Source: Procambarus clarkii (taxonomy: Eukaryota; Arthropoda; Malacostraca; Decapoda; Cambaridae). From it: a stretch of DNA of 64,000 nucleotides. The notes beneath the pieces were generated by a model. That model had not been told where the DNA came from. It was given only the letters and a program-made list of their open reading frames with translations, and did no database searches. Shown here piece by piece: positions 37,557-61,368 of this stretch; positions within the stretch are counted from its first letter, which is position 1; each line of letters begins with the position of its first letter. The translations under genes and the position numbers were made by a program. The stretch is from contig NC_091185.1 of assembly GCF_040958095.1 (NCBI RefSeq), positions 19,386,218 through 19,450,217 of the forward strand. Reading direction: 5' to 3'.

Positions 37557-37977
37557 AGGACCCCAAGGTCCCCAAATCTGTTGGTATTACAAATGGGCTA
37601 CCTGTAAGCATGGGGAATCGGGAAGAACAAATGGAACATGTAAATACGATCACCCTAGAAAGTGCAGAAACCTCCTCAATACAGGTAAATGTACCAAAAG
37701 CTGTGAATTCTTTCACCCAGAAATTTGCAAGAACTCTTTGGACAGGAAAGAGTGCTTCAATGCTGAATGTCCAGCTTTCCATAAAAGAGGTACCAGGCGA
37801 ATAAAACCGACAGACTACCACTATGAAAACAGCCAATACTCCATCGACCGGGATAATTTTTTAGCAAGAGGAAGAGGAGAAGAATGGCTCAAAGTGACCA
37901 GACTCTACCACCAACTCGGTCAAATGCTAGAGAGGACACAAACACAGTGGCCTCCTTACCAGAGCCTCAGATATTAA
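37557..37977 (+). pseudogene. ORF1 of element F, C-terminal part with CCCH zinc fingers
   Basis: In frame it reads ICWYYKWATCKHGESGRTNG, CKYDHPRKC, CTKSCEFFHPEICKN and CFNAECPAFHKRG. These are three consecutive CCCH-like fingers, a nucleic-acid-binding module seen in ORF1 of some crustacean non-LTR elements. The N-terminal part is missing because the element is truncated at 37556; an upstream frame continues only by chance into element D. Its stop at 37977 lies 94 bases beyond the ATG of ORF2 (37884), in a different frame, so the two ORFs overlap. Confidence 0.75.
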
Positions 37978-40900
37978 CACCAATTAAAGCATCCAGCACT
38001 TCCACTAACACGATAACATCATTTATATTTGCCAACATCCAGGGTATAAAAACACGCAAATTCAACAAAGTTCACTTTATAGATGGTCTCCTTCATGAGG
38101 TAAATGCAGTGTTTGCAGCTCTAACGGAAACTCACACAAAGGACCACCTTGATGGTGAAATATGGATCTCAGAGTACAATCTTTTCAGATGTGATAGGAA
38201 ACACCGGCTGCAGGGTGGGGTCAGCCTCTACATCAAAGACACACTCATCTGTACTGAGCTGCTAAACACCTCAAATGATATGGTGGAAGTGCTGATAGTC
38301 AAAATAGAGATCCTAAATGTAGTTGTTGTCCTTGTATATAAGTCACCGGAGGCAAACCCTCAGCAGTTTAAAGACCAACTAATGAAAATAGAACACTGCT
38401 TGGAAAACCTCACAAATCCAGCTCCGAACATCATCCTGCTTGGAGACTTCAACCTACGGCACCTGAAATGGAAGCACCTGGCTAATACAGTAATATCAGA
38501 AAGAATACCAGGAAGTAGCCTATATGAACAGGCACATGCAAATGACCTGCTACGGATGTGCGACAGGTTTGCCTTAAACCAGCAAATAGTAAAACCAACT
38601 AGGAAGGAAAATACGCTGGACCTCATTTTCACTAATAATGATGAATTGATCGGGAACATAATGATTACAAATACCTGTTACTCAGATCACAACTTAATTG
38701 AAGTTCTGACAACCATGGGGAATGGAACTTCAAAACCAGTCCAGATTCCCGGTGGAGGAGATTTCAGCAAATTCAACTTCAATAATAAACAGATAAACTG
38801 GGAGCGAATAAACCAGGACTTCACAGAAATAAACTGGGAAGAACAGCTAGAAAATGCAAACCTGAACCAGTGCCTGGAAAAAATAAGCTCAGTAGCACTA
38901 GAAATATGTTCAAACCGAAAACCCCTAAGAAAAAAGAGGAAGAGATGCAGATTGAAACGGGAACGTCGTTCCCTATATAGGCGAAGAAAACGAATCGCGG
39001 AACAACTTGAGAGTCGCACCCTATCTCAAGAACGGCGAATAAGGTTAGGTAGAGAAATAGAAACAATTGAACTCAAGCTACAAGAATCATACAAAACCCA
39101 GGAGAGGCAAAGAGAGCAAAAGGCCATCAGTGAAATAGAGAGAAATCCGAAATATTTTTTCTCCTATGCAAAATCAAGATCAAAAACCACATCTAGTATC
39201 GGGCCCCTGCGAAAGGGAGATGAAACTTTCACCGATGACAACAAAGAAATGAGCGAGTTACTGAGGAAGCAGTACGACTCTGTTTTCAGCGAGCCATTAA
39301 ACGCACTAAAGATTGATAACCCAAATGAATTTTTCATGGATATGATACCGACATCAAATCATATATCAGACGTCGCCCTATTCCCACTAGATTTTGAAGA
39401 AGCCATAAACAGTATGCCTATGCACTCTGCACCAGGCCCGGATTCTTGGAACTCCATATTCATCATGAACTGTAAAAAACCACTATCGCAGGCCCTTCAC
39501 ATTCTGTGGAGACAAAGCCTAGATACTGGCGTTATCCCTGACATACTAAAAACAGCAGAGATAGCACCACTCCATAAAGGAGGAAATAAGGCAGAGGCAA
39601 AAAATTACAGACCGATAGCATTAACATCGCACATCATAAAAAATTTTGAGAGAGTGCTAAGAAGTAAGATCACAAAATACATGGAATCACAGCATCTCCA
39701 TAGCCCCGACAACATGGTTTCAGAACAGGGCGCTCTTGCCTGTCGCAGTTGCTGGACCACTATGATATGGCATTAGATGCTATGGAAGACAAACAAAACG
39801 CTGATGTAATTTACACAAATTTCGCAAAAGCTTTTGATAAATGTGACCATGGTGTTATTGCACATAAAATGCGTTCAAAAGGAATTACCGGGAAAATAGG
39901 CAGATGGATCTGCAATTTCCTGACTAACAGAACCCAATGTGTAATAGTCAACAAAATAAATTCCAGCCCATCAACCGTGAAGAGCTCAGTCCCCCAGGGT
40001 ACTGTGCTTGCTCCAGTACTTTTTCTCATCCTCATATCGGACATAGACAAGAACACAACCTTTAGCACTGTATCATCCTTTGCAGTTGACACTAGGATTT
40101 TCATGAGAGTTGGCAACATAGAGGACACGGCAAACCTCCAATCAGATGTAGATCAGGTCTTTCTATGGGCTACAGAAAATAATATGGTGTTTAACGAGGA
40201 TAAGTTCCAGCTTATGCGCTACGGAAAAATTGAAAATATAAAAACAGAAACCGCGTACAAAACTCAGGCAAATCATAACATAGAACGAAAAGGCAATGTA
40301 AAGGATCTGGGTGTACTCATGTCGGAAGACCTTACCTTTAAAGAACACAATAAAGTAGCCGTCACAACTGCAAGAAAAATGACAGGTTGGATAACAAGAA
40401 CTTTTCACACTAGAGATGCTATACCGATGATGATACTTTTCAAAACACTTGTGCTCTCTAGAGTGGAGTACTGCTGCACAATGACAGCCCCTTTCAAAGC
40501 TAGAGAAATTGCTGACCTGGAGAGCGTGCAGAGATCCTTTACTGTTAGAATCCACTCAGTAAAACATCTAAATTACTGAGACCGACTAAAGAGCCTAAAT
40601 CTGTACTCCCTTGAGCGCAGGCGGGAGAGATACATAATAATTTACCCGTGGACAATAATTGAGGGGCTGGTCCCAAACCTGCACACAGAAATAACATCAC
40701 ATGAGACCAGAAGACATGGCAGGATGTGCAGAATACCCCCGTTGAAAAGCAGAGGAGCAACAGGTACTCTGAGAGAGAACTCTATCAACATCAGAGGCCC
40801 GAGACTGTTCAACACGCTTCCACTACACATAAGGGGCATAACTGGCCGACCCTTCACAGTGTTCAAGAGAGAACTGGATAAGCACCTACAAAGGATATCT

Positions 40901-41150: not shown

Positions 41151-42365
41151 ACGAGACAACAGGACACGTAGCGTCATTACTACTACAGTTGTCAACAACA
41201 GGACACGTAGCGCCACTACTACTACTACCGTAGTCTACAACAGAACATGTAGCGTCACTACTACTACTACTGTTGTCATCAACAGGTCTTGTAGCGTCAC
41301 TACTAATACTGTTGTCTACAACAGGACACATAGCACCACTCTACTACTGTTGTCATCAGCAGGACATGTAGTGCCACTACTTCTACTATTGTTGTCATCA
41401 ACAGGACACGTAGCGTCACTACTACTACTGTTGTCATCAACAGGACACGTAGCGTCACTACTACTACTACTGTTTTCTACAACAGAACACGTAGCGTCAC
41501 TACTACTACTGATGACATCAACAGGACACATAGCATCACTCCTGCTAGTGTTATCTATAACAGAACACGTAGCTTCACTACTACTACTACTGTTGTCAAC
41601 AACAGGACACGTAGCACCTCTTCTACTACTGTTTCAACAACAGGACACGTAGCACTACTGCTACTACTGCAACTGTTGTCAACAACAGGACACGTAGCAC
41701 TACTACTACTACTATTATCAACATTGGACAAATAGCGCCACTACTACTACTGTTCTCAACAATAGGACACGTAGCACTCCTACTACTACTGTTGTCAAAA
41801 TTGGACACGTAACGCCACTACTAGTATTGTTGTCAACAATAGGACACGTAGCGCCACTACTACTCCTATTGTCAACAACAGGACATGTAGCACCACTACT
41901 ATTACTGTTGTCAACAAAAGGACACGTAGCGCCACTACTACTACTGATGACATCAACAGGACACATAGCATCACTCCTGCTAGTGTTATCTATAACAGGA
42001 CACGTAGCTTCACTACTACTACTGTTGTCATCAACAGAACACGTAGCGTCACTACTACTACTACTGTTGTCAACAACAGGACACGTAGCACTACTACTAC
42101 TACTATTATATACATTGGACAAATAGCGCCACTACTACTACTGTTCTCAACAACAGGACACATAGCATCACTCCTGCTAGTGTTATCTATAACAGGACAC
42201 GTAGCTTCACTTCTACTACTGTTGTCATCAACAGAACACGTAGCGTCACTACTACTACTACTGTTGTCAACAACAGGACACGTAGCACCACTACTACTAC
42301 TGTTGTCAACAATAGGACATGTGGCACTCCTACTACTACTGTTATGGCACTCCTATTACAGAACT
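41151..42365. repeat. 36/39-bp minisatellite, left block
   Basis: Units of the form GTTGTCAACAACAGGACACG plus TAGCGCCACTACTACTACT, 36 or 39 bases long according to the number of CTA triplets. About 32 units. The units interchange GTCAACAACAGG with GTCATCAACAGG and GTCTACAACAGA variants. Because the periods are multiples of three, frames on both strands stay open. The block ends degenerately at the truncated LTR of element C. Confidence 0.95.
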
Positions 42366-42985
42366 GTACTGTAAGTACAGTTCTGCCTCCTTCCGGCTCT
42401 GCACGTGTCCGCGTACCGACTGTCTACCGACTGCAGGGGATGGCGTCCCTCCTACCCACGCCGAGTCGACGTTCATAACACAAATTATTGTCTTGAACAT
42501 TAATATTTCTCGCATTCGCGCTTGAAACTCTAAAGACTGGACGGGTTTATTATTTAGAGGAACGAAATATTATTATTTAACTATTTAAGAATAGTAAATA
42601 TATAAGGGAGAGGAATTAATGTCTTCCCATGGCATTCATTGATGACGTTAACACTATCGCGAGGTAGACGGTATAATTCTAACGCTCTATTCGGCTTTTA
42701 GTTAGAGAACAATTCGTCTGCAATCAGTTGTCATACAGAATGCTTTAATTATGGAGAATCGTATTTAATTCTCACACAAATTTAATATAATGTGTTTTAC
42801 TGTAAAGAAATCTGACGCAATACTGGCGTCAGGTGACGTGAGAATTCTAGCCTTATGCACAGATGAATTATTAGTACAGGAGAATTCTACGAGTTGTTAA
42901 TTTTACTTACTACAATATTAAGTATGGTTAGTAATAAGTAATGAGAATACAACAATGCTGTATTCGATGTTGGAAATATCCAGCA
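42366..42985 (-). mobile_element. 3' LTR of BEL-like element C, truncated
   Basis: It repeats 55671-56290 base for base in length (620) with few differences, in the same orientation. On the minus strand it starts TGCTGGATATTTCC at 42985 and is cut at 42366, where about 990 bases of the full 1610-bp LTR are missing. The cut abuts the minisatellite. At the break AGAACTGTACT (42360-42370) and AGTACAGTTCT (42374-42384) form an 11-bp perfect inverted repeat. Confidence 0.8.
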
Positions 42986-44454
42986 TAACTCCGGGGGGGG
43001 GATTCCCAGGGTCGCAGTGTACTGTGTTGTACTGACCTATCCCGAAGTGATATTAAGATTAATACATTAGTATGTTAGTATGTTAGTATGTTAGTACACA
43101 CATAACGAACGTCCCGGATTTATCAAGGACTTACAAGAACTTGAGTCTTGCTATTTACATGTCAACTGAAACATGTTGTTTGTAGCCTACACAATATTTA
43201 TAGTATTCAACTCTCGCAATTTAAACTAACAGAATCTACGGTGATGCGATATCCTGGGCCATAGTGACATGTAATGTTTTGTTACGTGATATCACATCGT
43301 AGCATCATCACAGTTTTCTCAGTGGGAGGTGAAGGAAATTACTCTTGTTCAGAGTTGTAATAGGCTTGCAGTTTCCCTTAGTGGAAACATGCATGAAATA
43401 TTGAAACATTAAATGATTAAGTTATCGGTAATCAGGAACACTCTAAAGCTCACAATAAACTCAACAACTAGGGTCGCAGTGACATGTAATGGTGTATTAC
43501 GTAGCTGCTGAATCGTAGGTAAACTCAGAATAAGTTCCTAAGAACTGATAACACTATTGTATGATTATACAGTAAAGTGTTATTAGTCATTTAAGATCAA
43601 GGAGACTATGACACTACAGTAAGGTCACTGTCTAGGGTCGCTGTGACTTGTAACTATTGAGTTACTAGACAATAACATCACGCAGCATCATGATCACCTC
43701 AAATTCAAATGAGGAAATTTAATTAAATGTGCACTGCCGTGCAGTAGTCATGCTGACTGATGGTACAACTAATTTGCTAACTAGCTAAAATAATAGAAAG
43801 TTAGAGAACTGAAAAGTTTATTCATTAAATCAAGGAAAATTCTGAGTCGACAGTGAGATTAGTAGCCTAGTCATTCTGACTTATGAGCTAATTAAATGGC
43901 AGCTCATAGGCTTGACACTGTAAACTGGTTAGTACGAAATCACCTTTACATGAATTTGAGTTTATTAAATCAGTCTCTATAAGTATAGTCAACTGTAATT
44001 AATGGTGAGTACAGATTAGGCTAGTACTCAGTTGACACTACTAAAGTCTCTAAACCTACCTAAATAAATGGTTTGAATTTCTAACCTACCTAAGTAAGGG
44101 ACTAAGCTAAATGTGAGCAAAAATGTACACAAATTAACATGGTGAGCAGTATTGAGCTCATTAACAGGTCGAGCTATATTAAACTCGTGAACATGGTGAG
44201 CTGTATTGAGCTCGTCAGCAGTGCTGACAGGGTGAGTTACAGTGAACTCGTCAACAGTGTTGACAAAGTGAGCTACATTGAGCTCGTTAGCTGGTGCTAA
44301 CAGGGTGAGCTGCATGGAGCTCGTTAGCTAGTGCTAACAGGGTGAGTTGCAGTGAACTCGTCAACAGTGTTGACAGGGTGAGCTACAGTGAGCTCGTTCG
44401 CTGGTGCTAACAGGGTGAGCTGCATGGAGCTCGTTAGCTGGTGCTAACAGAGTG
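42986..44454 (-). other. 3' untranslated region of element C, distal part
   Basis: No ORF. A motif GGGTCGC-A/T-GTGAC-A/T-TGTAA recurs at about 43008, 43261 (diverged), 43471 and 43635, roughly 160-230 bases apart. A C-rich (minus) run at 42992-43000 is next to the LTR. The hairpin array begins at about 44138. Confidence 0.6.
44138..44454. repeat. Tandem hairpin array (36-37 bp units), left part
   Basis: About nine units of GGGTGAGCTACATTGAGCTC plus GTTAGCTGGTGCTAACA and variants. Each unit has two short inverted repeats (GAGCT/AGCTC and GTTAGC/GCTAAC). The variants change both arms together. The array is interrupted by element B and continues at 50086. Confidence 0.9.
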
Positions 44455-45446
44455 TGTCGGAAAATCCGACACCATTTAATATATCATACAGACAGATAAT
44501 AATTGCTGCTGTATTACCAACAAGTTACCCATGGAAAACGTAACTTGTAGTGGAATTACCGTCTAAAGAAAACGGGATATCATCACCACATACCATTATA
44601 AATTCACCAGCTATTCTGCTGGGAATTATTCTTAAATACATTAGTCTTTGGACTTTACCATCATAAACCATCTCATATAAATTAACTTAATTATCAATAT
44701 TAAAGTAGAGTAAATGTGACCCTTCTATCACTTTCTGTCATGTGGACAATGTAAGCCAGGCGTCAGGGAGGAAGGAGGGCAGCCATTGTTGATACTAGAC
44801 CAGAGGCTCACGGGAGCAAATGCGGCTCCTGTTAATTTTACTTGGACGTAGTGTTATGGAAACCAAGGGTGTACCATTTTCAACACGCTGTCAACAAATC
44901 AAGTTAAGTGTTCTTTCCGAAACCCGTTTATTTTCATTTATGGCCATTAATGTCATTATATAGGGTGAGCCGGTTAGAGCACGTGGGAGCCTCAAACTAA
45001 AGGTAATTAAGCCAGGTCTTTAAGGTTCCATGTATAGTGTTTTCTCTGATATAGCTTGTCATATATAGAACCTGGCTTCACAGCTAGCGCCCTTTTGACA
45101 GGTCAAGACGAGGAAGCAAGATTTTGTGCACCAGTTACTGGGTGATGGAAGCTACCTCAAAGAGGATAATTTGGTGTCTACACCCTAGTTATACCTGGTG
45201 GACTAACCTGCTGTACTATAAGATAAGGAACCTTTTCAATGTATGTAGTTAATACTGTAGTTTGATTGGCTGCATATATATTAATTTAATAAACCCCCCC
45301 TAATGTGTAGAAGATCGATTTGTGAGATTATTGCAGAAATACAGTCCACTTATCATTATACAAATTGCTATCGAAGTATATAAATTAACGTAAATATAAA
45401 TTCATATAAATTAAATAAATATAAATCTCACAGGTCGGTTCCCACA
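44455..45446 (+). mobile_element. 5' LTR of BEL-like element B (992 bp)
   Basis: It starts TGTCGGAAAATCCGACA and ends GGTTCCCACA. It matches 49074-50085 almost throughout, apart from a replaced segment at about 44961-45003. Flanks are GAGTG on the left and GGGTG on the right of the element, a 5-bp duplication with one difference. Promoter and polyadenylation signals were not resolved. Confidence 0.93.
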
Positions 45447-45449
45447 ATA

Positions 45450-45524
45450 TTTGGTCATCTTCGAACCGGATGACGGATTATTTGATCCTTTGAACCCACA
45501 TTTGGTCATCTTAGTACCGGATGA
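45450..45524 (+). promoter_or_regulatory. Primer-binding motif of element B, duplicated
   Basis: Three bases after the LTR, TTTGGTCATCTTCGAACCGG (45450) resembles the sequence after the 5' LTR of many Pao/BEL elements as I remember them. It recurs at 45501 as TTTGGTCATCTTAGTACCGG. Element C has TTATGGTCCTTCGAACCGG at the equivalent site (minus, 54680). The TGG start fits a tRNA 3' CCA primer; the tRNA is not identified. Confidence 0.5.
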
Positions 45525-46400
45525 ACCAGTTAACCAGTGGATTCATTAAATATACTAGTGCAGTGTGATTTAAACAAAGGCCAGCCAGTCATAGACGGCG
45601 GCGTTGACTCGTGCGAGTTCACGAGCCCCGCTCAGTTCAGATCAGCCTTTGTCAGCGGTTTCATGCACACCCACAGATATTTGGTGGCGTGTTATTTCGT
45701 GAAATGACAGCGCTAATATTGAAGCCAGCCAAATTAGTGACTGTGTCTTCGCGATATTGTTCACGGATTTCGTGGTGTTAAATTTCGCGAGAGATTATCC
45801 ACGAATTTTGTGGACTTTATTTCGCGAGGTCACTAATAATATTTAATACTTCTTGATAATATTAGAAGTTTCATAGAGGCTAATTAAGAGGCTATTATCA
45901 ATAATTGTGTATATTATTTCTCCAAAATAGAGAATTATTTAATATATATTGCACTAGTGATCACAGTATAATATATACTAATTGCCAACCCACAACAGGG
46001 TAGGATACTGACTAGTTGAACTATTATTGTTCATCCTAGTCCCATTATTACTATAGTCAGTTGTACTATATTGAACAACCTAACACCATTAACGAATGGT
46101 CCAGACCCTATTTTGGGTGTAATTTTTATCAACTCGAGTTGAGTTGTATATATAATAATTTACTTATGATCATTACACCTTTGAGTGATTAATTAGTGTC
46201 TCTACCATCCTAGGGTGATATAGAAGAGCTAACCTAAAGGTACTTCCAGTGACACTGGTTTATCACTCAAATCATTAGTGTGTATGATTGTATATATATA
46301 ATGTGTATTAATTTTAAGTGCTAACCTCTAGTAGAGGTAGGATTATTGCCTAGTGAGTGCAGAATTTACCCTAGGCTACCATTAGTGTTTGTTCAGTATT

Positions 46401-48376
46401 ATGAGCAGCCCAAGTACAAGTCCCACAAGGCTTCACCAACTAGCCAGTATGGATAATGCAGGGAGAATGAAAAGAACCCTTGCAGGCTTAAAGGCCACTT
46501 AACAAGACAGATCAAGAAATGTGAAGATTTGTCACAACAATCAACAGTTGATTATGCTGACCTGGAAAGCTATTATCAAGCAGCTGCAGGTAAATTTGAG
46601 CAAATCAAATGTCAAATAGCAACATATGTGGCTGAACTTGCCAACACCAATTTATCAGAAACAGTAATAGACGACATTATGGTTGATCTTGCGAATTATG
46701 AAGATCACACTCAGGCCACGTTACACCCTTATGTTAAATTAATTGCCCAGAACAAGGCAACAGCAACAACAACAACAGTTGCATCTAATACGAGTCAAGC
46801 AGAAGCTCGACTCCCTCCAATTAATTTACCCACTTTCTCAGGAAAAGATGAGGAAGATTGGGACGAATTTTGGAACAAATTCGTTGACCTTGTAGACTCA
46901 AAACAATCTTTACCAAAGAGTAGTAAATTCTCTTATTTGCAAGGCCAATTATCAGGTGAGGCTAAAACAGTAGTATCCCATCTGAGATTAACTAATGACG
47001 GCTATGATCTGGCAGTACAACTCCTCAAGGATAATTATGCTGATCCAGAAGTAAGAACATCACATTTAGTTCATGAGCTGTTGCATTTACCCCCACCGGA
47101 GGCTTCAGCTGATTCACTCCAAGTCTTCAAGCTGGAGGTAGAATCATTGATCAATGCCCTCAGCCTGACAGCAGATACAAACGGGGCTGAGTGGGTCTTG
47201 AAAATAATTGTCCAGGAGAAAATACCTAGGGACATATTGAGACAAATGAGTGCTCATTACAATAAAAGCATCTTATCCATGAGTGAAATATCTGGAGGTT
47301 TAAAGTCAGTAGTTCATCAATTACGAACACATGACAAATTAAAACCACCAAGTAAACCCTCAGAAACCAATAATAGTAAACCACAGAGTACCAAAGGTAC
47401 TCCAAATCAAGCTAGACAATATAATTCAACACCAAAGTGGAACAGTGGCAGTGTGGGCGTATATGCAGTGGGACCCTCCAAGCCTATAGTTACTGTGTCA
47501 CCCAAGAACGTGACACCAAAGGGTACTGGAAGCTATGGAACATGTTTGTTCTGCAATGAGAAACATTCAATGTACCACTGCTCTAATTATCCTGATAGTG
47601 ATGCCCGTGGTGAGCGACTCAAAGATTTGCAACATTGCACGAGGTGCCTCAGGAAACATAACATCAAGGATTGTGATACCCAATTACACACCTGTAATAG
47701 GTGTAACAAAGGTCAGCACCATGCAGCATTGTGCAGAGACACCAAAACAACGTCTCCAAACCCCAAGGTGGAAGATAGCATTCCCACCTCAGTACAGTAC
47801 TGCAAGGTGCAACCAACAAAGAGTGTCCAATCGGCAAAGTCTAAAGGTAATACGACTTTGCCTACTGCCCAAATTACCATCCTGAATAAGAGGGCCAAGG
47901 TCCATACCCGTGGGTTGTTTGACCAAGGATCCCAGAGAACATTTGTCACTAAAAAGTTGGCAGATGAACTACAATTAAGGCCTGTAGCCCAAACGTCATT
48001 CAACATCTCAAGGTTTGTAACAGATGCAGGACCTCAAGTCTACCAGGTGGTACAACCATCAGTACGCTTAGGCAGGTACGTCTGTCGAGTACAAGCCATT
48101 GTGGTGGACAAAATACCAGTAGACCTACAAGTTCAAGGTCTGAGAGCAACAGCCAAATTCCTGAGAAATAGAGGAATAAAATTGGCAGATAATATTAAGT
48201 CTGATCACCTCACCGACTTCGGTCTCCTTGTAGGGACAGACTATTGTCATCGATTCATCGGTAGCCCTACTAAATATCAGGGTATAACCATGTTAAACTC
48301 TGCAGGAGGTAAATTACTCTCAGGCCCAGTATCAAGCCTGAGGAGACCTATGCCTGCAGATAAACAATACCAATAG
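46401..48376 (+). CDS. gag: Gag-protease polyprotein of element B (BEL/Pao type), one frameshift
   Basis: The likely start is ATG 46401 (MSSPSTSPTRLHQLAS...LAGLK). One base is missing near 46494, after which the frame GHLTRQIKKCEDLSQQ runs to TAG 48376. From the CTT/TTG region the frame is 615 codons. There is a DUF1759-like gag core (about residues 95-270 of the long frame: LPTFSGKDEEDWDEFWNKF, YLQGQLSGEAKTVV). Three Cys/His knuckles follow at 339-402 (CLFCNEKHSMYHC, CTRCLRKHNIKDC, CNRCNKGQHHAALC). A retropepsin-like segment comes last, with GLFDQGSQRTFVT (Asp 465), the DQGSQ form usual in BEL. The frame ends soon after the protease. No RT, RNase H or integrase follows in the 700 bases before the 3' LTR. 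Confidence 0.88.
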
Positions 48377-49073
48377 AAATCTAAATTTGTCTGCTGATTA
48401 TATTTCTCCAGTAGCATTATACTAAGGAGATTACAGCTGACTATAGTAACAGAGGTTGATGTTAGTATCATCATTTAAAGCTGAAGATGAGTTCATGAGG
48501 CCTCAGTGGCAAATCAGTGAACAGTAGCCTAAAACAGCTACAAGTCACTGCGACCAATGTCACTGAACCCACTGCAGTCTCAGAACCATACTTTACTTTA
48601 ATGATGAGCTATTCAATTTTCTGAATCAATTAACTAAATTAAACCCCAATAAATCTGATGACTGATTTGATACATTTATTATTTAATCAAGATGTATTCC
48701 ATGGGCCTCAGTGTTTATATATCAGTGACCAGTTACCTGAACAAACTTCAAGTTATATCTAATGTCACTGATCTCACTGCAGTCCCTGAATCATACTTGA
48801 CTGTAGTACTTGATCACATTCAGTCTTCTGGGTTAAATAATATGTAATAAGGCTTGAATATTAGCCTTTCAAGAGTTAACAGGGAAATGAAATCGCATTA
48901 GACTTCTAACCCCTGCAACTCTAGTACGGGACATCCGTCCTGTACGAACAGACGCACAAATGTGTGATTACAAACTACTAACATCAAATTAATCTAATAA
49001 TTCGAAGGAGGAGTATCGGTGTTCGTCTGTTCTAAATAGGACTTCGACCCGTGAGCAGCCCCCTGGGGAATTA
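48377..49073 (+). other. 3' untranslated region of element B
   Basis: No coding. It contains TACAAGTCACTGCGACC near 48539, the inverse of the motif repeated in the 3' UTR of element C, and a diverged copy near 48750. It ends with CCCCCTGGGGAATTA directly before the LTR. Confidence 0.7.
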
Positions 49074-50085
49074 TGTCGGAAAATCCGACACCGTTTAATA
49101 TATCATACAGACAGATAATAATTGCTGCTGTATTACCAACAAGTTACCCATAGAAAACGTAACTTGTAGTGGAATTACCGTCTAAAGAAAACGGGATATC
49201 ATCACCACATACCATTATAAATTCACCAGCTATTCTGCTGGGAATTATTCTTAAATACATTAGTCTTTGGACTTTACCATCATAAACCATCTCATATAAA
49301 TTAACTTAATTATCAATATTAAAGTAGAGTAAATGTGACCCTTCTATCACTTTCTGTCATGTGGACAATGTAAGCCAGGCGTCAGGGAGGAAGGAGGGCA
49401 GCCATTGTTGATACTAGACCAGAGGCTCACGGGAGCAAATGCGGCTCCTGTTAATTTTACTTGGACGTAGTGTTATGGAAACCAAGGGTGTACCATTTTC
49501 AACACGCTGTCAACAAATCAAGTTAAGTGTTCTTTCCGAAACCCGTTTATTTTCATTTATGGCCATTAATGTCATTAATAGGGTGTTTTATATCAGAGAA
49601 AACACTATACATGGAACCTTAAAGACCTGGTAATTAAGCCAGGTCTTTAAGGTTCCATGTATAGTGTTTTCTCTGATATAGCTTGTCATATATAGAACCT
49701 GGCTTCACAGCTAGCGCCCTTTTGACAGGTCAAGACGAGGAAGCAAGATTTTGTGCACCAGTTACTGGGTGATGGAAGCTACCTCAAAGAGGATAATTTG
49801 GTGTTTACGCCCTAGTTATACCTGGTGGACTAACCTGCTGTACTATAAGATAAGGAACCTTTTCAATGTATGTAGTTAATACTGTAGTTTGATTGGCTGC
49901 ATATATATTAATTTAATAAACCCCCCCCCCCTAATGTGTAGAAGATCGATTTGTGAGATTATGAGATTATTGCAGAAATACAGTCCACTTATCATTATAC
50001 AAATTGCTATCGAAGTATATAAATTAACGTAAATATAAATTCATATAAATTAAATAAATATAAATCTCACAGGTCGGTTCCCACA
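49074..50085 (+). mobile_element. 3' LTR of element B (1012 bp)
   Basis: Near-identical to the 5' LTR. Differences are a few substitutions, a longer C run near 49920, a short ATGAGATT duplication near 49960, and a segment at 49579-49630 turned into the inverted copy of 49639-49680. The small number of point differences implies recent insertion. Confidence 0.93.
49589..49680. repeat. Perfect 42-bp inverted repeat in one LTR only
   Basis: Left arm 49589-49630, spacer TAATTAAG, right arm 49639-49680; the arms are perfect reverse complements. The right arm is also present in the 5' LTR (45012-45053). There the left arm position (44961-45003) has unrelated sequence starting TAGGGTGAGCCGG. Confidence 0.95.
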
Positions 50086-50465
50086 GGGTGAGCTGCATGG
50101 AGCTCGTTAACAGTTAACAGGGTGAGTTACATGGAACTCGTCAACAGTGTTGACAGGGTGAGCTACATTGAGCTCGTTAGCTGGTGCTAACAGGGTGAGC
50201 TACATGGAACTCGTTAACAGTTAACAGGGTGAGTTACATAGAACTCGTCAACAGTGTTGACAGGGTGAGCTACAGTGAGCTCGTTAGCTGGTGCTAACAG
50301 GGTGAGCTACATGGAGCTCGTTAACAGTTAACAGGGTGAGTTACATTGAACTCGTCAACAGTGTTGACAGGGTGAGCTACAGTGAGCTCGTTAGCTGGTG
50401 CTAACAGGGTGAGCTACATGGAGCTCGTTAACCGTTAACAGGTTGAGTTCAGTGAACTCGAATTA
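50086..50465. repeat. Tandem hairpin array, right part
   Basis: About ten more 36-37 bp units continuing 44138-44454 across the B insertion. They are arranged as higher-order triplets of the GTTAAC, GTCAAC and GTTAGC stem types. The order is regular: a unit with GTTAACAGTTAAC, then GTCAACAGTGTTGAC, then GTTAGCTGGTGCTAAC. Confidence 0.92.
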
Positions 50466-51260
50466 ACGAGGTGGAGTTTTGTCATTCAGTTATCATGGCG
50501 AGCAATATTAAGCTCGTGCGCATGGTGAACGAGCACTCATATTATTACGTTAATTCTAAGGTGAGCTATGTTAAGCTCATGAAGCATGTTAATTAACAAT
50601 GCTAATGTTTAACGGTAATGCATTAAACATATTAGTTCTCTGGAAATTCACTTACATATTAGTAAGTTTGCAAGTTTGTTCGTGTTGCGCTCCTACACTA
50701 AATAAGCAGAAACGAAAGAAAAACAACTCAACAATTAATGCAAGTATTTATCACTAATTCTTAGTGCAGAAAACATGGTATTAAGAAGGTTTTCTTGGCA
50801 AACCTTTAAGCGCAAGTATAGTGGACCAGTGGTCCTAGTGAATTTGTAATTAAATTCAGGAAATGCCAGTGGCATTAAGTGCTAGATTCTCTAGCCTAAC
50901 ATTATTAATTCCTAGGGGGTACTAGATTCTCTAGCCCAACATTACAATTTAACTAGGAAGACTGAGTGTGGTCAATTACTACTTGTCGAGAATAATTCTA
51001 GGTCTGCAGTGAATTCAATGGTTTGGTCGCTGTGACTTGTACTTGTTTGAGTACGGACCCTTGGTTTTCACTGAGAGCTATGAAACATCTCGGCGAGTAT
51101 CAACTGTACTACATTCAATCTGAGTTTATTACTCAGCTGCGTTTCTCCTTTTAGCTTGTTGCTGGAGAATTGATTTACTGCTGACTAATTTATTTTTGTT
51201 GGCAGGTTTAGGCTTGTTCACATTCAGAACTTTACCAGTAAGTAAGTAGCCTCCTGCAGA
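50466..51260 (-). other. 3' untranslated region of element C, proximal part
   Basis: AT-rich, no ORF. It contains GGTCGCTGTGACTTGTA near 51027, the same motif as in the distal part and, inverted, in element B. Confidence 0.6.
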
Positions 51261-53453
51261 TTAAAGCATATTCATTCCCAATCGTTTAACATGTCCAGTT
51301 ATGAACTGGTAATAGTAGTCGGCTCTTACTAGTACATCTACATTGTTAAGGCGGTCAGACATTAACTTGTTGTCAGCCAAATTAATTTCACGTTCCAGCA
51401 GGAAGTGGGCTGTGTACCCCAGACCTTTAATATGTAAGTCTAAAGGTATTTGATCTACAACAATGGCTTGGACAGCCTTGGCTTGACTACCTAGTCGTAC
51501 AAGCGGCTGAACTACTGTGTATTCATGGGTTCCTCGATTTATCATGGACCCTGACAAGTTTAATTTTACCTGTCCTATTGATTGTAAATTAAGTGCCTCT
51601 ACTGCCCTTTGAGTAATGAAAGTTCTCTGGGAACCTTGATCGAATAGTCCACGTATGGTGATCTTGGTTCCTCTGTTCTTCACTTGAAGTTGGGCAGTAG
51701 GCAAAGCAGCATCCACTTGAGATGCTTGTGAAGTTACGCTGTACACATCTCGCACCTTGCAGCACTGTACTTGTGTAGATTCTCTACGTCCTATTCTAGG
51801 ATTGACATAATTAGTCCTAACTAATTTGCACAGTGCAGCATGATGCTTGCCCCTTCTACACCTGTTGCAGGTGTTCAGTGGGGTGTCACAGCTGTTAACA
51901 TTATGTGGTTTGAGACACCTAGTACATTTGTGTAACTGTTTGAGTCGTCTGACTCTGGTGTCTCTATTAGGATAATTAGTACATTTGTACAGAGAATGTT
52001 TTTGGTTGCAAAACAAGCATATTCCCCATCCTACAGATCGTTTAGGGGTTACCGGTTTAGGTAAAACAGTATTTGCAGGTGGTGATGGTTTTGCTGCTTG
52101 CATTTGCTTGTTATTTATTCTCTTGTGAGTACTTGGTGTACTCTGGGGAACCATTAACAGGTTCTTGGGAGTGCTCTTTGGACTATTAGGTCTCTTAGGA
52201 GCACCTGTGGAGCTCTTAGGCCTCACTGATGAATCAGTGTTTGACTGATTCTGGTTACATGGATTATTAGCACCTTGGTTACCTAGTGACAGTGTCACTT
52301 TAGGAGTTTCAGGCAAGGAAACTGATGTAGGTACAGTTTTGGTGCATTCAGATTTAGCATTAATTGCCTGGTCTGCTGTATGATTGCTCATATTACGCAA
52401 ACCTGTAAATATATCCTGCATTGACAGGGTATTACCATTCTGGCATACATATAGTTTATTAAGTGTGTCACCAGACAATTTTCTTTGGATGATAATTTTA
52501 GTCATCCACTCAGTAGTTGGGTGATCCACCTCTTTACTGAAAGAATTTATTAGTGACTCAAGCTGAAAACTAAAAGTTTGTAAAGAGTCAACTAATTGCT
52601 CTGGTGAAGATAAATTTAATAATTGGTGCACAAGGTTTATAATAGTCTTCTCATTGTTAGCACTTGCTTTAGAAGGCTGTTGTGAGCAATTGTGACCATT
52701 ACTTGTGTTGCTTAAGGCTTCTTGCTTAGCCTCAGTTTTGATTACAGCTTCGGCTGCTGCTGCAGCATTAGCTTTATCATTTTCTGGTTCAGATCCACTG
52801 ATCATTGCAGTTTCACTTGTTTCATCGGCAGCTTCACTTGTTTCTCTGGGTTCTGGTGATAAGCTAGTTAATTCAGTAGCATTATGTATCGAACTTATAG
52901 AATCCAGGGAACATTGAGAAGAGTGGTCTGAAATTTGATCAGACTCTGTGAACAAATCATCACATGAAGCTGTATTAGATGAGAGGTTAGAAAATGAAGG
53001 TTGATCTTCAGTTGTTGATCCTGTATAGTGATCAGCATTGATTAGAGGATTCTCCTCGTCTTGATTTAGCTCAAGTATTTCATCTGAGCTGAGTGTTAAC
53101 TTGGATACAGGTCTATTAATGATCTGATCCACCCACTCGGGAATATCTTGCTTCGCAAGCACCTCCTTATATCGGTCTAAACTGGTTTGAACAGAATGTT
53201 CATAGTTATAGAGATCAGATTCTGTTAGACGTAAGTGGTCTGAGACAGTATGACCGGCTTGGAGTATATTCCTGTGGGACTCGATTACAGTCTTGATATA
53301 GTCATATTTTTGGGTGGCAATCCTTATGGAACTTGCTAGTCTATAGACGTCACCTGGGTCAGTTTCGACACAGAAATGACATTTCATAAGCAGTTTTCCT
53401 AAAGGACCTTGAAGAGCTGTCAAGAATCTTGCATTCCTTTCTAAAGGATTCAT
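51261..53453 (-). CDS. gag: Gag-protease polyprotein of element C (730 aa, intact)
   Basis: ATG at 53453, stop at 51261, no internal lesion. Residues 1-130 are a helical-looking N-terminus. Residues 130-270 are acidic, Ser/Glu/Ala-rich, where element B instead has its DUF1759-like core. Residues 273-360 (INLVHQLLNLSSPEQLVDSL, EWMTKIIIQRKLSGDTLNKL) align with B residues 178-265. A Pro/Lys/Asn-rich linker precedes Cys/His knuckles at 479-542 (CLFCNQKHSLYKC, CTRCLKPHNVNSC, CNRCRRGKHHAALC). The protease segment is GLFDQGSQRTFIT with Asp 605. The protein is expected to form particles and bind RNA in the cytoplasm. No pol gene follows in about 2.6 kb (after removing element B) before the LTR. Confidence 0.88.
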   Translation of the reverse strand: MNPLERNARFLTALQGPLGKLLMKCHFCVETDPGDVYRLASSIRIATQKYDYIKTVIESHRNILQAGHTVSDHLRLTESDLYNYEHSVQTSLDRYKEVLAKQDIPEWVDQIINRPVSKLTLSSDEILELNQDEENPLINADHYTGSTTEDQPSFSNLSSNTASCDDLFTESDQISDHSSQCSLDSISSIHNATELTSLSPEPRETSEAADETSETAMISGSEPENDKANAAAAAEAVIKTEAKQEALSNTSNGHNCSQQPSKASANNEKTIINLVHQLLNLSSPEQLVDSLQTFSFQLESLINSFSKEVDHPTTEWMTKIIIQRKLSGDTLNKLYVCQNGNTLSMQDIFTGLRNMSNHTADQAINAKSECTKTVPTSVSLPETPKVTLSLGNQGANNPCNQNQSNTDSSVRPKSSTGAPKRPNSPKSTPKNLLMVPQSTPSTHKRINNKQMQAAKPSPPANTVLPKPVTPKRSVGWGICLFCNQKHSLYKCTNYPNRDTRVRRLKQLHKCTRCLKPHNVNSCDTPLNTCNRCRRGKHHAALCKLVRTNYVNPRIGRRESTQVQCCKVRDVYSVTSQASQVDAALPTAQLQVKNRGTKITIRGLFDQGSQRTFITQRAVEALNLQSIGQVKLNLSGSMINRGTHEYTVVQPLVRLGSQAKAVQAIVVDQIPLDLHIKGLGYTAHFLLEREINLADNKLMSDRLNNVDVLVRADYYYQFITGHVKRLGMNML

Positions 53454-54680
53454 TCTTGCGGTAAATTGAGCCTGATAGGGCTTATGTAGCTAGTGGTATA
53501 GCTATAGTGTCTGCTCCTTGATGCAGAGCAGGTATAATTATTGACAGCCTGATAGGGCTTATATAGCTAGTGGTATAGCTATAGTGTCTGCTCCTTGATG
53601 TAGAGCAGGTATAAGTATTGACAGCCTAATATTTCTTGAGGCTGGTTGTAATTTACCTCATTTAGAGGTTAGCTACCTACCTAATAATAAGCAACTAAAA
53701 TTTGAGTGGTACCTTGGTCTCACTACAGGTGTTCCTCAGCTTAGCTCTTCTAAATCAGCCTCGGATGGGTAGTGGACTTACAGCAACACTCAAAAACATA
53801 CATAGAAATATGCAATAAAATAATTACACAATAAATGGTTAATCCCACCCTTGATAGGGTCAGCACAAAAGAATAATATATATGTCACTAACTAGCTCAA
53901 GCCTAGTCGTGAGAATTTCTACTTGAGAAACTACAACTATATTTAGTCTGTGCTTGTGCCAAATTCAACACAATCACAGCCTAAATTGCTACCTACCTAA
54001 GGTTGGCAAAGATTATATTATGGTGCAGTAATGTGCAAATAATTGTGCTGTGTTTTTGGGTTTTTTGTATTTTATATAATATTCACTTGTGTAATTATGT
54101 GTATAAGAAATTAAATGAACACAAAGGAATTAATTGTGTTTGGCAAGTATTCTACTGCCGTAAATATTATCTAACTCCTGAATGTACTCCTAATTGTGGA
54201 ATAAATATTATCAGGATTAGTAATGATTAACTAGTATGAGATCAGTAATTTATATTAGTATACTGGATCCCTAAATGTTAATGATCCACTGACTTGAGTG
54301 AATCAGTAATTATAACATGGATTCAGGCTATAATGGACAGTCTGCTGACAGCCATATATTGAAGCATTGGTATAGCCTAAATGGTTAACACTTAATTGGT
54401 GTTAGTGATTAATATAAGGTTATGAGCTGTTGCTCTTGGTGACCTATGGATTCTACTTCAGTATGAAGTGTAGGTCTAAATGTTGTGGGTAATTGGCTAT
54501 GACCCACTAAAGCTATGTATAAGGTAGCTGTTAGTGTGATCTAGACTAACTGATGTGTTACACTGTTAGTTGACACAATTAATTAAATAGTTAGTCTAGC
54601 TTCTATCACACAAGGATTAGTTATTAATGGTTAATATTTTAATTATAAATTTAATGCCTATCCGGTTCGAAGGACCATAA
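53454..54680 (-). other. 5' leader of element C
   Basis: Non-coding, about 1.2 kb. It contains a 77-bp tandem duplication (53470-53623). Next to the LTR, the minus strand reads TTATGGTCCTTCGAACCGG, the presumed primer-binding site. Confidence 0.65.
53470..53623. repeat. 77-bp direct tandem duplication
   Basis: Two units starting GCCTGATAGGGCTTAT at 53470 and 53547, differing at about four positions, followed by the first bases of a third. They lie just upstream of the gag ATG (minus strand). Confidence 0.93.
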
Positions 54681-56290
54681 TGTGGGATATTTGGGCTTGA
54701 TTCTGATTAATTAATAATTAAAATAGTAAATTAAATTACGAAGGACCACCCGCTTTTCAAGGAAAGAGGGAAACTGAGAATTTCAGATCATTAGATAAAA
54801 TTCTAGAGAAAACCAGTGACTATGGATATAACTAGAAAGTATGATCATAAGAATAATTAATGGGCTGTATTATTAAAGAAACCAAACCTCAAACACCTAC
54901 ATTAGGGGGTTATTACTGGAGGTCAGTACGTCCAGGAATCAGTGTGGTTCGTTCACTAATTCAATTAATAATAATCTAATCCTATAAATAATGCTGAATA
55001 TAATATTATTCATATAAAGAAGAACATGAATATGAGCATAGCAATGAATTACAGTAAATCACACATTATGTTGAAACATTCTGAATGTATCAAATTGCTA
55101 GAATATGGGAAAAAGAAATAAGCCTTAGCTGGTAGTAGGTTCCTTTAGATAACCCTGGAAGTCCTCTTAATCTCCAAGTCTGGTACACTGACGAATGGCA
55201 CGGTTAACATGAAGAAGACAACGTGAGGAATTCGTCTCTCGAGCTGCAAGATAAATAACTACCAGTAGCAATTGATTTAACTACTCAATTCATATTCAAG
55301 ATTATTGATATCTACAGATGGAATTCTAATCACCTGTTATTAGGTGTTATCTCGCCGCGTGACGCGCAATCACCCCGCTATTATTGAACCTGTAAATGAT
55401 GCATCAAATAAAGGGTACTTAGCTGTGGGCACTGTATAAATATTAAGATTGCCGTAATTTCGCATCCCAGGCTCCGGTGAACCTATCCTGGATTGATGCG
55501 TTTCAAGCTGGCTGATCACGTGTCGTCAGGAAAGAAGTCTAGGGTCCCTCCTTTAACACCAGCACTAGTTGAAGATATTATCTGCAAGGTCGTTCACGCC
55601 TCACAGTGGCGGCTTTCATCTGCGGATGAATAACACCTGCCCGATTTGCTGGGCAATGGCGTCGTTTTGAGTACGGTAAGTACAGTTTTGCCTCCTTCCG
55701 GCTCTGCACGTGTCCGCGTACCGACTGTCTACCGACTGCAGGGGATGGCGTCCCTCCTACCCACGCCGAGTCGACGTTCATAACACAAATTATTGTCTTG
55801 AACATTAATATTTCTCGCATTCGCGCTTGAAACTCTAAAGACTGGACGGGTTTATTATTTAGAGGAACGAAATATTATTATTTAACTATTTAAGAATAGT
55901 AAATATATAAGGGAGAGGAATTAATGTCTCCCCATGGCATTCATTGATGACGTTAACACTATCGCGAGGTAGACGGTATAATTCTAACGCTCTATTCGGC
56001 TTTTAGTTAGAGAACAATACGTCTGCAATCAGTTGTCATACAGAATGCTTTAATTATGGAGAATCGTATTTAATTCTCACACAAATTGAATATAATGTGT
56101 TTTACTGTAAAGAAATCTGACGCAATACTGGCGTCAGGTGACGTGAGAATTCTAGCCTAATACACAGATGAATTATTAGTACAGGAGAATTCTACGAGTT
56201 GTTAATTTTACTTACTACAATATTAAGTATGGTTAGTAATAAGTAATGAGAATACAACAATGCTGTATTCGATGTTGGAAATATCCAACA
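54681..56290 (-). mobile_element. 5' LTR of element C (1610 bp)
   Basis: On the minus strand it starts TGTTGGATATTTCC at 56290 and ends ATATCCCACA at 54681, next to the primer-binding motif. The U3-side 620 bases are repeated at 42366-42985. The rest is supported by the terminal CCCACA shared with the B LTR and by position. It adjoins the minisatellite directly. Confidence 0.75.
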
Positions 56291-59200
56291 ACTACTATTG
56301 TTGTCAACAACATGACACGTAGCGCCACTACTACTACTGTTGTCAACAACAGGACACGTAGCACCCCTACTACTACTGTTGTCAACAACAGGACACGTAG
56401 GGCCACTACTACTACTAATGTCAACAGCAGGACACGTAGCACCCCTACTACTAATGTTGTCAACAACAGGACATGTGGCATCCCTACTACTACGGTTATC
56501 AACAACGGGACACGTAGCATCCCTACTACTACTGTTGTCAACATTGGAAACGTAGCGCCACTACTACTACTGTTGTCAACAATACGACACGTTGCGCCAC
56601 TACTTCTCCTGTTGTCAACAAAAGGACAAGTAGCACATCTTCTACTACTGTTTCATCAACAGGACACGTAGCATCTCTACTAATACTGTTGTCATCAACA
56701 GAACACGTAGCGCCTCTACTACTACCGTTGTCTTCAACAGAACACGTAGCGTCACTACTACTACTGTTCTCATCAACACGACACATAGCGTCACTACTAC
56801 TACTGTTGTCTACAACAGAACATGTAGCGTAACTACTACTATTGTTGTAATCAACAGGACACGAAACATCTTTACTACTCTTCTTGTAAACAATAGGACA
56901 CGTAGCGTCACTACTACTGCTACTGTTGTTATCAACAGCACACATAGTGTCACTTCTACTTCTGTTGTCAACAACAGGACACGTACCGCCATTACTACTA
57001 ATGTTGTAATCAACAGGACATGTAATGTCACTACTACTACTGTTGTCAACAACAGGACACATAGCGCCACTACTATTACTGTTGTCTACTGCAGGACACG
57101 TAGCGCCACTACTACTGCTGTTGTCAACAATAGGACACGTAACGCCACTACTACTACTACTGTTGTCATCAACATGACACGCAGCGCCACTACTACTACT
57201 GTTGTCAACAACAGGACACGTAGCACCTCTTCTACTACTATTTCATCAACAGGACACGTAGCATCACTACTATTACTGTTGTCATCAACAGGACACGTAA
57301 CATCACTACTACTACCATTGTCTAAAACAGAACACGTAGCGTCACTACTACTACTGTTGTCCACAACAGGACACATAGCGCCACTACTACTACTGTTGTC
57401 AACAACAGAACACGTAGCGTCACTACTACTACTGTTGTCAACAACAGGACACGTAGCTCCAGTACTACTACTGTTGTCAACAACAGGACACGTAGCACCC
57501 CTACTACTACTGTTGTCAACAACAGGACACGAAGCGCCACTACAACTACTGTTGTCAACAACAGGACACTTAGCACCGCTACTACTACTTCTGTTGTCAA
57601 CAACAGGACACGTAGCGCCACTACTACTACTGTTGTCAACAACAGTACACTTAGCACCGCTACTACTACTACTGTTGTCAACAACAGGACACGTAGCACT
57701 TTTTCCACTACTGTTTCATCAGCAGGACCCGTAGCATCACTACTATTACTGTTGTCATCAACAGGACACGTAGCATCACTACTACTACCATTGTCTACAA
57801 CAGAAAACGTAGCGTCACTACTACTATTGTTGTCAACAACAGGACATGTTGCGTCACTATTACTATTGTTGTCAACAATACACGTAGCGCCACTACTACT
57901 ACTGTTATCAACAACAGGACACGTAGCTCCCTTACTACAACTGTTGTCAACAACAGGACACGTAGCACCCCTACTACTACTGTTGTCAACAATACGACAC
58001 GAATCACCACTACTACTACTACCGTTGTCAACAACAGAACATGTAACGCCACTGCTACTCATGTTGTCAACAACAGGACACAGTGGCACCTCTTCTACTA
58101 CTGTTTCATCAACAGAACACTTAGTATCACTACTACTACTACTGTTGTCAACAACAGGACATGTAGCGCCACTACTACTGCTGTTGTCAACAACAGGACA
58201 CGTAGCGGCACTACTACTACTACAACTGTTGTCATCAACGGGACACGTAGCGCTATTACTACTGTTGCCATCAACAGGACACGTAGCGCCACTACTACTA
58301 CTACTACCATTGTCTACAACAGAACACATAACGTCACTACTACTACTGTTGTCATCAACAGAACATGTAGCGCCTCTTCTACTACTGTTTCAACAACAGG
58401 ACACGTAGCACTACTACTATTACTGTTCTCATCAACAGGACACGTGGCGCCACTATTACTACCGTTGTCAACAATAGGACGCATAGCACCGCTACTACTA
58501 CTGTTGTCTACAACAGGACACGTATCACCTCTTCTACTACTGTTTCCTCTACAGGACACGTAGCACCACTACTACTACTACTGTTGTCAACAACAAGACA
58601 CGTATTGCCATTACTACCAACGTTGTAATCAACAGGACAAGTAGCGTCACTACTACTATTGTTGTCAACAACAGGACGCGCAGCGCCACTACTACTACTG
58701 TTGTCATCAACAGGAAACGTAGTGTCACTACTACTGTTGTCAACAACAGGACACGTAGCGCCACTACTACTGCTGTTGTCTTCAACAGAACACGTCGCGA
58801 CACTACTACTACTGTTGTCATCAACCTAATACTTCGAGACACTATACTACTGTTGTCATCAACAGGACACGTAGTGCCACTGCTACTACTACTATTTCTG
58901 TTACCATCAACAGGACACGTAGCATCACTATTACTACTGTTTTCAACAACAGTTCACGTAGTTCCACTACTACTACGGTTGTCAACAACAGGACACATAG
59001 CACCCCTACTACTGTTGTCAACATTGGACACGTAGCGCCACTACTGCTACTGTTGTCAACAATAGGACAGGTAGCACCCCTACAACTACTGTTGTCAACA
59101 ATAGGCTACGTAGCTCTCCTACTACTACTGTTGTAAACAATAGGACACAAATCACCACTACTACAACTGTTGTCAACAATAGGACACGTAACATCACTAC

Positions 59201-61368
59201 TATTACTGTTGTTATCAACAGGACACGTAGCATCACTACTGCTTCTACCATTGTCTACAACAGAACACGTAGCGTCACTAATACTACTGTTGTCATCAAC
59301 AGGACACGTTGCACCCCTACTACTACTGTTTTCAACAACAGGACACGTAGAACCCCTACTACTACTGTTTTCAACAACAGTTCACGTAGTTCCACTACTA
59401 CTACTGATGTCAACATTGGACACGTAGCGCCACTACTACTACTGTTGTCAACAACAGGACACGTAACACCCCTACTACCACTATTGTTAACAACATGACA
59501 CTTAACGTCATTACTACTACTACTGTTGTGAACAACAGGACACATGACGTCACTACTGCTACTACTACTGTTGTCAACAACACTACACGTAGCTCAACTA
59601 CCAATACTGTTGTCAACAACAGGACACAGCGCCACTACTACTACTGTTGTCAACAACAGGACACGTTACACCACTACTAATAATGTTATCAACAACAGGA
59701 CACGTAGCGCCACAACAACTACTGTTGTCATCAACAGGACACATAGCATCACTACTACTACTGTTGTCTATAACAGAACACGTAGCGTCACTACTACTAC
59801 TGTTGTCATCAACAGAACACATAGTGCCACTACTACTACTACTGTTGTCAACAACAGGACACATAGCGCCACTACTACTACTGGTGTCACCAACAGGACA
59901 CAACATCACTACTACTACTACTACTGTTGTCAACAACAGGACACGTAGCGCCACTACTACTACTACTGTTGTCAACAACAGGACACATAGCGTCGCTACT
60001 ACTACTGTTGTCAACAACAGGACACAGCACCATTACTACTACTGTTGTCTACAACAGGACACTTAGCTTCACTTCAACAACTACTACTTTTGTTAACAAC
60101 AGGACACGTAGCGTCACTACTACTACTACTGTTGTCATCAACAGGATATGTAGCGTCACTGTTTCTTCTGTTGTCAACAACAGGACACGTAGCGTCACTA
60201 CTGCTACTGTTGTCATCAACAGTACACGTAGTGCCACAACTACTACTGTTGTCATCAACAGGACACGTAGCGTCTCTACTACTACTACTGTTGTCAACAA
60301 CAGGACACGTAGCGCCACTACTACTACTGTTGTCAACAACAGGACACGTAGTGTCACTACTCCTACTGTTGTCATCAACAGGACACGTAGCGTCATTCCT
60401 ACTACTGTTGTATACAACAGAATACTTTGCGTCACTACTGCTACTGTTGTCATCAACAGAACACGTAGCGTCACTACTACAACTGTTGCCAACAACAGGA
60501 CACGTAGGACCTTAATAACTACTACTATTACTTTTGTCAACAACAGGACACGTAGCACCACTACTACTACTGTTGTCAACAACAGGACACGTAGCGCCCC
60601 TACTACTACTGTTGTCAACAACAGGACACGTAGCACCCCTACTACTACTGTTGTCAACAACAAGACACGTAGCGCCCCTACTACTACTGTTGTCAACAAC
60701 AGGACACGTAGCACCCCTACTACTACTGTTGTCAACAACAGGACACGTAGCACCCCTACTACTACTGATGTCAACAACAGGACACGTAGCGCCACTACTA
60801 CAAATGTTGTCAACAACAGGACACGTAGCGCCACTACTAGTACTACTGTTGTCATGAACAGGACACATAGCGTCACTACTGTTACTGTTGTCATGAGCAA
60901 GGACACATAGCGTCACTACTATTACTGTTGTCAACAACAGGACACGTAACGTCATCGCTACTACTGTTGTCAACAACAGGACACGAAGCGTCACTGTTAC
61001 TACTGTTGTCAACAACAGGACACGTAGCATCACTGCTACTATTGTTGTCAACAACAGGACATCTAGCACTCTACTACTACTATTGATGTCATCAACAGGA
61101 CACGTAACATCATTACTACTACTGTTGTCAACAAGAGGACACGTAGCACCCCTACTACTATTTTTGTCAACAATAGGACACGAATCTCCACTACTACAAC
61201 CGTTGTCAACAACAGGACACGTAACGCTATTTCTACCCCTGTTGTAAACAACAGGACATGTAGTGCCATTACTACTTCTGTTGTCAACAACAGGACACGT
61301 AGCGCCACAACTACCCCTGTTGTAAACAACAGGACATGTACTGCCATTACTACTTCTGTTGTCAACAG
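56291..61368. repeat. 36/39-bp minisatellite, right block (about 5.1 kb)
   Basis: Continuation of the array at 41151-42365 with roughly 130 units. Unit variants include CAACAACAGGACACG, CATCAACAGGACACG and CTACAACAGAACACG, followed by TAGCGCCACTACTACTACT or TAGCACCCCTACTACTACT. Frames read VNNRTRSATTTT, LSTTGHVAPLLLL, LLTTVVVVALRVL and CPVVDNSSSSGAT; frames up to 335 codons are artefacts of the period. Local homogeneous runs (60530-60800) suggest recent amplification. Confidence 0.96.

Follow-up and report, generated by a model that had tools for sequence, protein, structure and literature searches.

A probable non-autonomous gag-protease lineage of BEL-type retrotransposons with a structured 3′ RNA array in Procambarus clarkii

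Retrotransposons that lack pol are usually read as dead-end deletions. A stretch of 64,000 nucleotides from the crayfish Procambarus clarkii (contig NC_091185.1, positions 19,386,218 to 19,450,217; hereafter the window) raises the question of whether this holds for two of its long terminal repeat (LTR) elements, which keep gag and protease and have no pol, or whether such elements can form a lineage of their own. The elements are B, at 44455–50085 on the positive strand, and C, at 42366–56290 on the negative strand, into which B is inserted; a decayed relative, A, lies at 1258–11295 on the negative strand. We consider it likely that B and C belong to a BEL/Pao-type lineage whose common ancestor was already without pol and which moves with the enzymes of another element. 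The arrangement is probably that of a stable non-autonomous gag-protease lineage with a structured array of RNA modules at its 3′ end.

Two nested elements without pol

Element B is bounded by LTRs of 992 and 1012 bp, identified by BLAST repeat matching and reading of the sequence. The 5′ LTR (44455–45446) begins with TGTCGGAAAATCCGACA and ends in CCCACA, and the 3′ LTR (49074–50085) is 95.7% identical to it, with 30 mismatches and 20 gap columns in the alignment; 26 of the 30 mismatches fall within one 43-bp block (44959–45001), in which the 3′ LTR holds an inverted copy of adjoining sequence, and the remaining four lie elsewhere. The LTRs have TG...CA ends and are flanked by a 5-bp target duplication with one difference (GAGTG/GGGTG), features by which BEL/Pao LTRs are recognized. 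Next to the 5′ LTR is a stretch that ends in TTCGAACCGGAT (45447–45471), which we take to be a primer site. A stop-free frame of 639 codons (46457–48376) follows, with a frame shift near the N terminus that is visible by eye, and its product matches DUF1759 (E 1.9e-25) and the protease domain DUF1758 (E 2.2e-6) in Pfam. The association of DUF1759, a Gag domain, with DUF1758 is characteristic of BEL/Pao elements; B has both domains and C has DUF1758 only. From the end of the B frame, 697 bp of non-coding sequence (48377–49073) lead to the 3′ LTR. Within that LTR, 49585–49680 contains a long inverted repeat that the 5′ LTR does not have, an inverted copy of the adjoining stretch of about 40 nt; it resembles the product of a template switch during reverse transcription, and two Rfam miRNA matches below the gathering scores both fall on it.

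Element C carries 620-bp terminal repeats (42366–42985 and 55671–56290) that are 98.7% identical, differing at 8 of 620 sites. The motif TTCGAACCGGAT has two exact copies in the window, one 13 nt past the B LTR and the other on the C strand (54671–54660), 9 nt past a CCCACA that resembles the B LTR end; this second copy belongs to a primer-like stretch, TTATGGTCCTTCGAACCGGAT (54660–54680), to which we assign the same presumed role. A tRNA scan of the window under the bacterial code found none. Since the primer-like stretch lies 1 kb inside and next to CCCACA, a neighbourhood also seen in A and B, the end of the C 5′ LTR is placed at 54681, and the comparison thus favours a 1.6-kb 5′ LTR (54681–56290) with a shortened 3′ copy (42366–42985) over LTRs of 620 bp. 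At the 3′ end of C, the TG...CA terminus and target duplication are unclear. The gag-protease frame of C (51261–53489) has 742 codons, 730 counted from the first ATG, and matches DUF1758 (E 9e-5). Its protein stops just past the protease, after which the same frame is open for 43 further codons. A 77-bp direct duplication, 96% alike (53469–53622), lies at the start of this frame, and the whole element is embedded in a 39-bp minisatellite (41156–42343 and 56291–61367) that has stop-free stretches of hundreds of codons in several frames.

B entered a tandem array of 107–110-bp units in C, which was found by repeat search and now flanks B on both sides, with a 107-bp unit on the right (50086–50460) and a 110-bp unit on the left (44190–44454). 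Because B sits within the 3′ region of C, the approximately 2.6 kb of non-coding DNA in C is divided into 1175 and 1469 bp on either side of it. The original prediction, made from the sequence alone, had described long gag-protease frames in B and C, no pol after the protease and these non-coding lengths, all of which were confirmed. Its interval of 44455–56290, in contrast, begins at B and omits the 3′ end of C.

Besides the two gag-protease frames, no open reading frame of at least 150 aa lies within 42366–56290, apart from a minisatellite frame that overlaps the edge by 9 bp. Pfam scans of the stop-free sense-strand pieces of at least 25 aa from the 3′ regions of A, B and C detected no retroelement domain in any of the 28; the two matches that did appear (E 0.05 and 0.18) were judged to be chance. 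As no reverse transcriptase (RT) of the BEL clade or otherwise was found in these pieces, the elements are described as derived from BEL and not as autonomous members of BEL/Pao.

A shared loss of pol and selection on the retained frame

Whether B and C lost pol together was addressed through local alignments, the scores of which were compared with dinucleotide shuffles (n = 500); in each B–C comparison, none of the 500 shuffles scored as high. The segment of B that begins at the protease end and runs through the spacer and the first RNA module (48377–48640) aligns with 51260–50900 of C at a score of 115 (shuffle mean 26.4), and the spacers alone, from stop codon to module motif, score 60 (23.6). 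Scores of 98 (26.2) were obtained for B 48640–49073 against the same part of C and of 104 (36.4) for B 48377–49073 against the left part of C; the 250 nt immediately preceding the 3′ LTR score 54 (22.9). The alignment across protease end, spacer and module shows that B and C pass from protease into non-coding DNA at the same join, which was probably inherited. If A, B and C had instead each lost pol from autonomous BEL families with the same 3′ region, two separate deletions in B and C would have needed to coincide in position, and B retains two modules while C retains at least four. Repeated modules could drive recurrent deletion, and the A junction is unlike that of B, however we regard such independent losses as quite unlikely.

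An even less probable account is that of a master family with pol in a separate frame downstream of the module, from which short-lived copies without pol arise repeatedly. The young insertions of B and C are what a live source would produce, however B and C also show homology in the module region and in the 250 nt that lead up to the 3′ LTR, and 415 nt at the 3′ end of A run colinear with B (82% identity). A non-coding gap between protease and pol is moreover unusual for BEL elements and counts against this account.

Element A was originally seen as a decayed relative with the same plan, which fits its arrangement, however it is too decayed to serve as an independent third case. Its 5′ LTR extends from 11295 to a CCCACA that ends at 6863 and is followed by TTAATGTTCCTTCG, resembling the order in B and C; its leader (4484–3901), decayed gag-protease region (3505–2342) and 3′ region (2295–1880) follow, and the 3′ LTR starts at 1862. 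A is closest to B in the 3′ non-coding region (84.6% identity), followed by the leader (78.7%) and the region encoding nucleocapsid (NC) and protease (PR) (75.3%). The C-terminal half of the protease and the first RNA module were not found in A, so its junction is uninformative on a shared loss. RT (RVT_1) and RNase H domains do occur within the span of A according to Pfam (4864–6740), upstream of its gag. At E ≤ 0.001 this piece matches 12 PDB sequences, enzymes of the group II intron, retron, CRISPR-associated and R2 types and their like; it ends in a TTCAA-repeat tail and is by these marks a nested non-LTR retrotransposon inserted in the A leader (4612–6740, negative strand) and not the pol of A.

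Over their main alignment, the proteins of B and C share 196 of 484 residues (40% identity), and 127 of the 253 codons for B residues 361–613, which cover the zinc knuckles and protease, encode the same residue in C. Synonymous divergence between B and C is 1.6–2.1 (Nei–Gojobori) and LTR divergence is near 1%, placing the B–C split far before either insertion; both elements, judged from their LTRs, moved recently. C is the older of the two by LTR divergence, which agrees with the nesting of B within it. The dN/dS comparison of gag proposed with the original prediction, made here by pairwise codon likelihood between B and C, gave omega 0.24 over the 337 codons of the C-terminal domain of capsid (CA-CTD), NC and PR (2ΔlnL 71.0). 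Values for subsets were 0.27 for NC and PR (253 codons, 2ΔlnL 51.5), 0.27 for PR (148 codons, 28.0) and 0.17 for NC (68 codons, 22.9); synonymous sites are saturated in the CA-CTD alone (84 codons, 22.5), and the linker at 284–355 gave 2ΔlnL 8.8 (72 codons). These comparisons indicate that gag-protease has been under purifying selection between B and C, and as the join is common to both, the time since their split can be argued to have passed without pol.

A repeated RNA module in the position of pol

In place of pol, both elements contain a repeated module of about 130 nt, with two copies in B and at least four in C. The B copies are Bm1 (48486–48629) and Bm2 (48691–48837), the latter having lost its second apical hairpin, both on the positive strand; those of C are Cm1 (50949–51091), Cm2 (43803–43930), Cm3 (43582–43681) and Cm4 (43403–43513), all on the negative strand, as is a degraded copy in A, Am (2107–2252). 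A profile built from four copies (one from A, two from B and one from C) found two more in C before iteration (E 6.7e-6 and 2.9e-5), and the iterated profile found a seventh sense copy as well as antisense matches to the modules themselves, a consequence of their near-palindromic sequence.

All seven modules were delineated by profile and folding. Folding z-scores relative to shuffles were −4.66 for Bm1, −1.78 for Bm2, −1.24 for Am, −2.99 for Cm1, −2.25 for Cm2, −2.89 for Cm3 and −0.70 for Cm4, for which 44 of 200 shuffles folded as well. Bm1, Cm1, Cm2 and Cm3 (4/7) are predicted to be branched, with a basal stem, a first hairpin and a second hairpin of the form GUC-loop-GAC, and when shorter cores were folded alone this form was kept in Cm1, Cm2 and Cm3 and not in Bm1, Bm2, Am or Cm4. 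The stems of the first hairpin vary with pairing kept (GUAGC/GCUAC, GUACU/AGUAC, GUAAC/GUUAC and GUAAU/AUUAC). The motif that follows, GTCACWGCGAC, has four exact sites in the window, both strands counted, against 0.03 expected, all of them sense and within the 3′ regions of B or C: GTCACTGCGAC in Bm1 (48544–48554) and Cm4 (43483–43473), and GTCACAGCGAC in Cm1 (51036–51026) and Cm3 (43647–43637). A 5-bp hairpin 2 nt upstream of the motif accompanies 4/4 of the exact sites, compared with 5/286 sites with one to three mismatches and 2796/127720 positions overall.

A covariance model constructed from Cm1 and Cm3, the E-values of which are rough, also finds Bm1 (E 1e-4) and Cm4 (0.0035), which are the more independent evidence since the model was built without them, as well as a possible degraded core in C (43257–43285, negative strand; E 0.44, not significant alone) and Am (0.99). 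Its matches with E of at most 10 number 18; the other 12 include Cm2 (9.8) and Am antisense (7.6), and the rest were taken as chance. In an Rfam scan of 42300–56400 (E ≤ 1), none of the B and C modules was matched, and no hammerhead or retrozyme family was found.

The modules may alternatively be decayed remnants of pol or functionless simple repeats, which would fit either account of the lineage. The 3′ region of C also contains the 107–110-bp tandem array and other repeats, the folding of Cm4 hardly beats its shuffles, the scores of Am and Bm2 are weak, and RNAalifold, applied to a sequence-based alignment of the seven modules, found almost nothing (three pairs, energy −0.21). No domain was detected in the 28 pieces from the 3′ regions, however, and the first-hairpin stems change with pairing kept and the motif after them retained, and we regard this alternative as unlikely.

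Mechanism, known parallels and neighbouring elements

Several points, to which the RNAalifold result belongs, weigh against a stable lineage with a structured array. Only three copies are present in the window, one of them decayed, and the state of A and its different junction deprive the lineage of an independent third case. The test for selection falls short of significance for the N-terminal coil (85 codons, 2ΔlnL 1.6), the N-terminal part of CA (62 codons, 3.4) and the NC–PR linker (37 codons, 2.0), and omega may include selection from before the loss if the join arose after the B–C split. Changes between A and B in NC–PR are nearly even over codon positions (35/33/42); this is expected of a long-dead copy and thus says nothing for selection. 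The minimum-energy structures of Bm2, Am and Cm4 (3/7) are not branched, the Bm1 core adopts another form when folded alone, and the copies had already been seen when motif and hairpin criterion were set, so that their counts are not blind. C lacks a Pfam match to DUF1759, and the helper behind mobilization in trans is hypothetical. In IMG/VR, searches with the B protein, the B and C alignment and the protease alignment gave 1, 63 and 4 pattern-matched stretches, respectively, and tblastn recognized no relative among them. The stable lineage without pol that had been proposed is supported by the colinearity of B and C across the junction, purifying selection and recent insertion, and is not supported by A as a case of its own.

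The proposal that the elements supply their own capsid holds at most for B, as C is without DUF1759 and the N-terminal half of its CA agrees with B at 13 of 62 aligned residues. A Ser/Glu/Ala/Thr-rich stretch, with no Pfam match up to E 10, replaces this half in C; the C-terminal part of its CA aligns with B, yet has no Pfam match. The B protein had no match in PHROGs, neither protein had one in NCBIfam, and a B and C profile had none by sequence in PDB up to E 0.1. AlphaFold models of B gag-protease (mean pLDDT 39.4) and its capsid piece (47.1), in which the capsid region is helical, are too uncertain for use.

Under the favoured reading of B and C as one lineage, pol would have been lost once in their common ancestor and gag-protease kept. 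A full-length RNA from the 5′ LTR would be translated into Gag-protease, a putative expression for which frames, domains and selection are read from the sequence. RT, RNase H and integrase would be supplied by a related autonomous BEL element at another genomic location, which would recognize the common primer site and TG...CA LTR ends, and the 3′ array would most likely act as a genomic-RNA signal for packaging, export or recruitment of helper enzymes. A more specific version, which we put forward tentatively, is that of a retrotransposon split into two components, with B and C as the half that combines Gag-protease with a branched hairpin array (the GTCACWGCGAC module); the array would have replaced pol and would tag the RNA for the enzymes or particles of an unlinked helper, and C, without a normal capsid domain, would perhaps depend on others for its shell as well. 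If true, this would be an animal case of a stable division of labour between retroelements, with gag-protease selected without pol, and the RNA motif would provide a concrete handle for seeking the helper.

Large retrotransposon derivatives have no coding capacity, and this identity was rejected for B and C because gag-protease frames are present and under purifying selection between them. HeT-A of Drosophila telomeres has Gag and no RT, as do B and C, and persists on RT from elsewhere, but is a telomere-specific non-LTR element; plant pararetroviruses, too, are not LTR elements. By analogy, the B and C lineage may work like the plant TR-GAG elements and, more loosely, like HeT-A. As presented in the available text of PMC8704663, TR-GAG elements are LTR elements with a Gag frame and no pol, a description that B and C fit with protease in addition, and one copy transposed in an Arabidopsis ddm1 mutant; that case is Copia-type with Gag only, whereas B and C are BEL-type with Gag, protease and a structured 3′ array. 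The accessible part of PMC3286476 describes non-autonomous LTR elements of another arthropod, Culex quinquefasciatus, that likewise have tandem repeats between their LTRs and have no known master copy; these are non-coding, unlike B and C. Non-autonomous endogenous pararetroviruses of grasses also form lineages with missing functions, thought to be sustained by partners to which they are linked by common non-coding regulatory sequences (PMC5491270, in the portion available), whereas a partner of B and C is inferred. The available text of PMC3442997, on the decay of mosquito elements, does not contain the word gag. No gag-protease-only BEL lineage was found in the literature searched, the accessible part of which had most subscription journals outside its scope.

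Other mobile elements lie in and around these subjects. Retroelement frames at 37192–40579 on the positive strand include an endonuclease domain in 37860–39776; a frame upstream of it has no Pfam match and contains CCCH-like cysteine patterns by eye. Two copies of a DNA transposon, presumably of piggyBac type, are 77–86% alike by segment, one within the span of A (9556–11235) and the other at 18932–21424, which carries a DDE_Tnp_1_7 frame.

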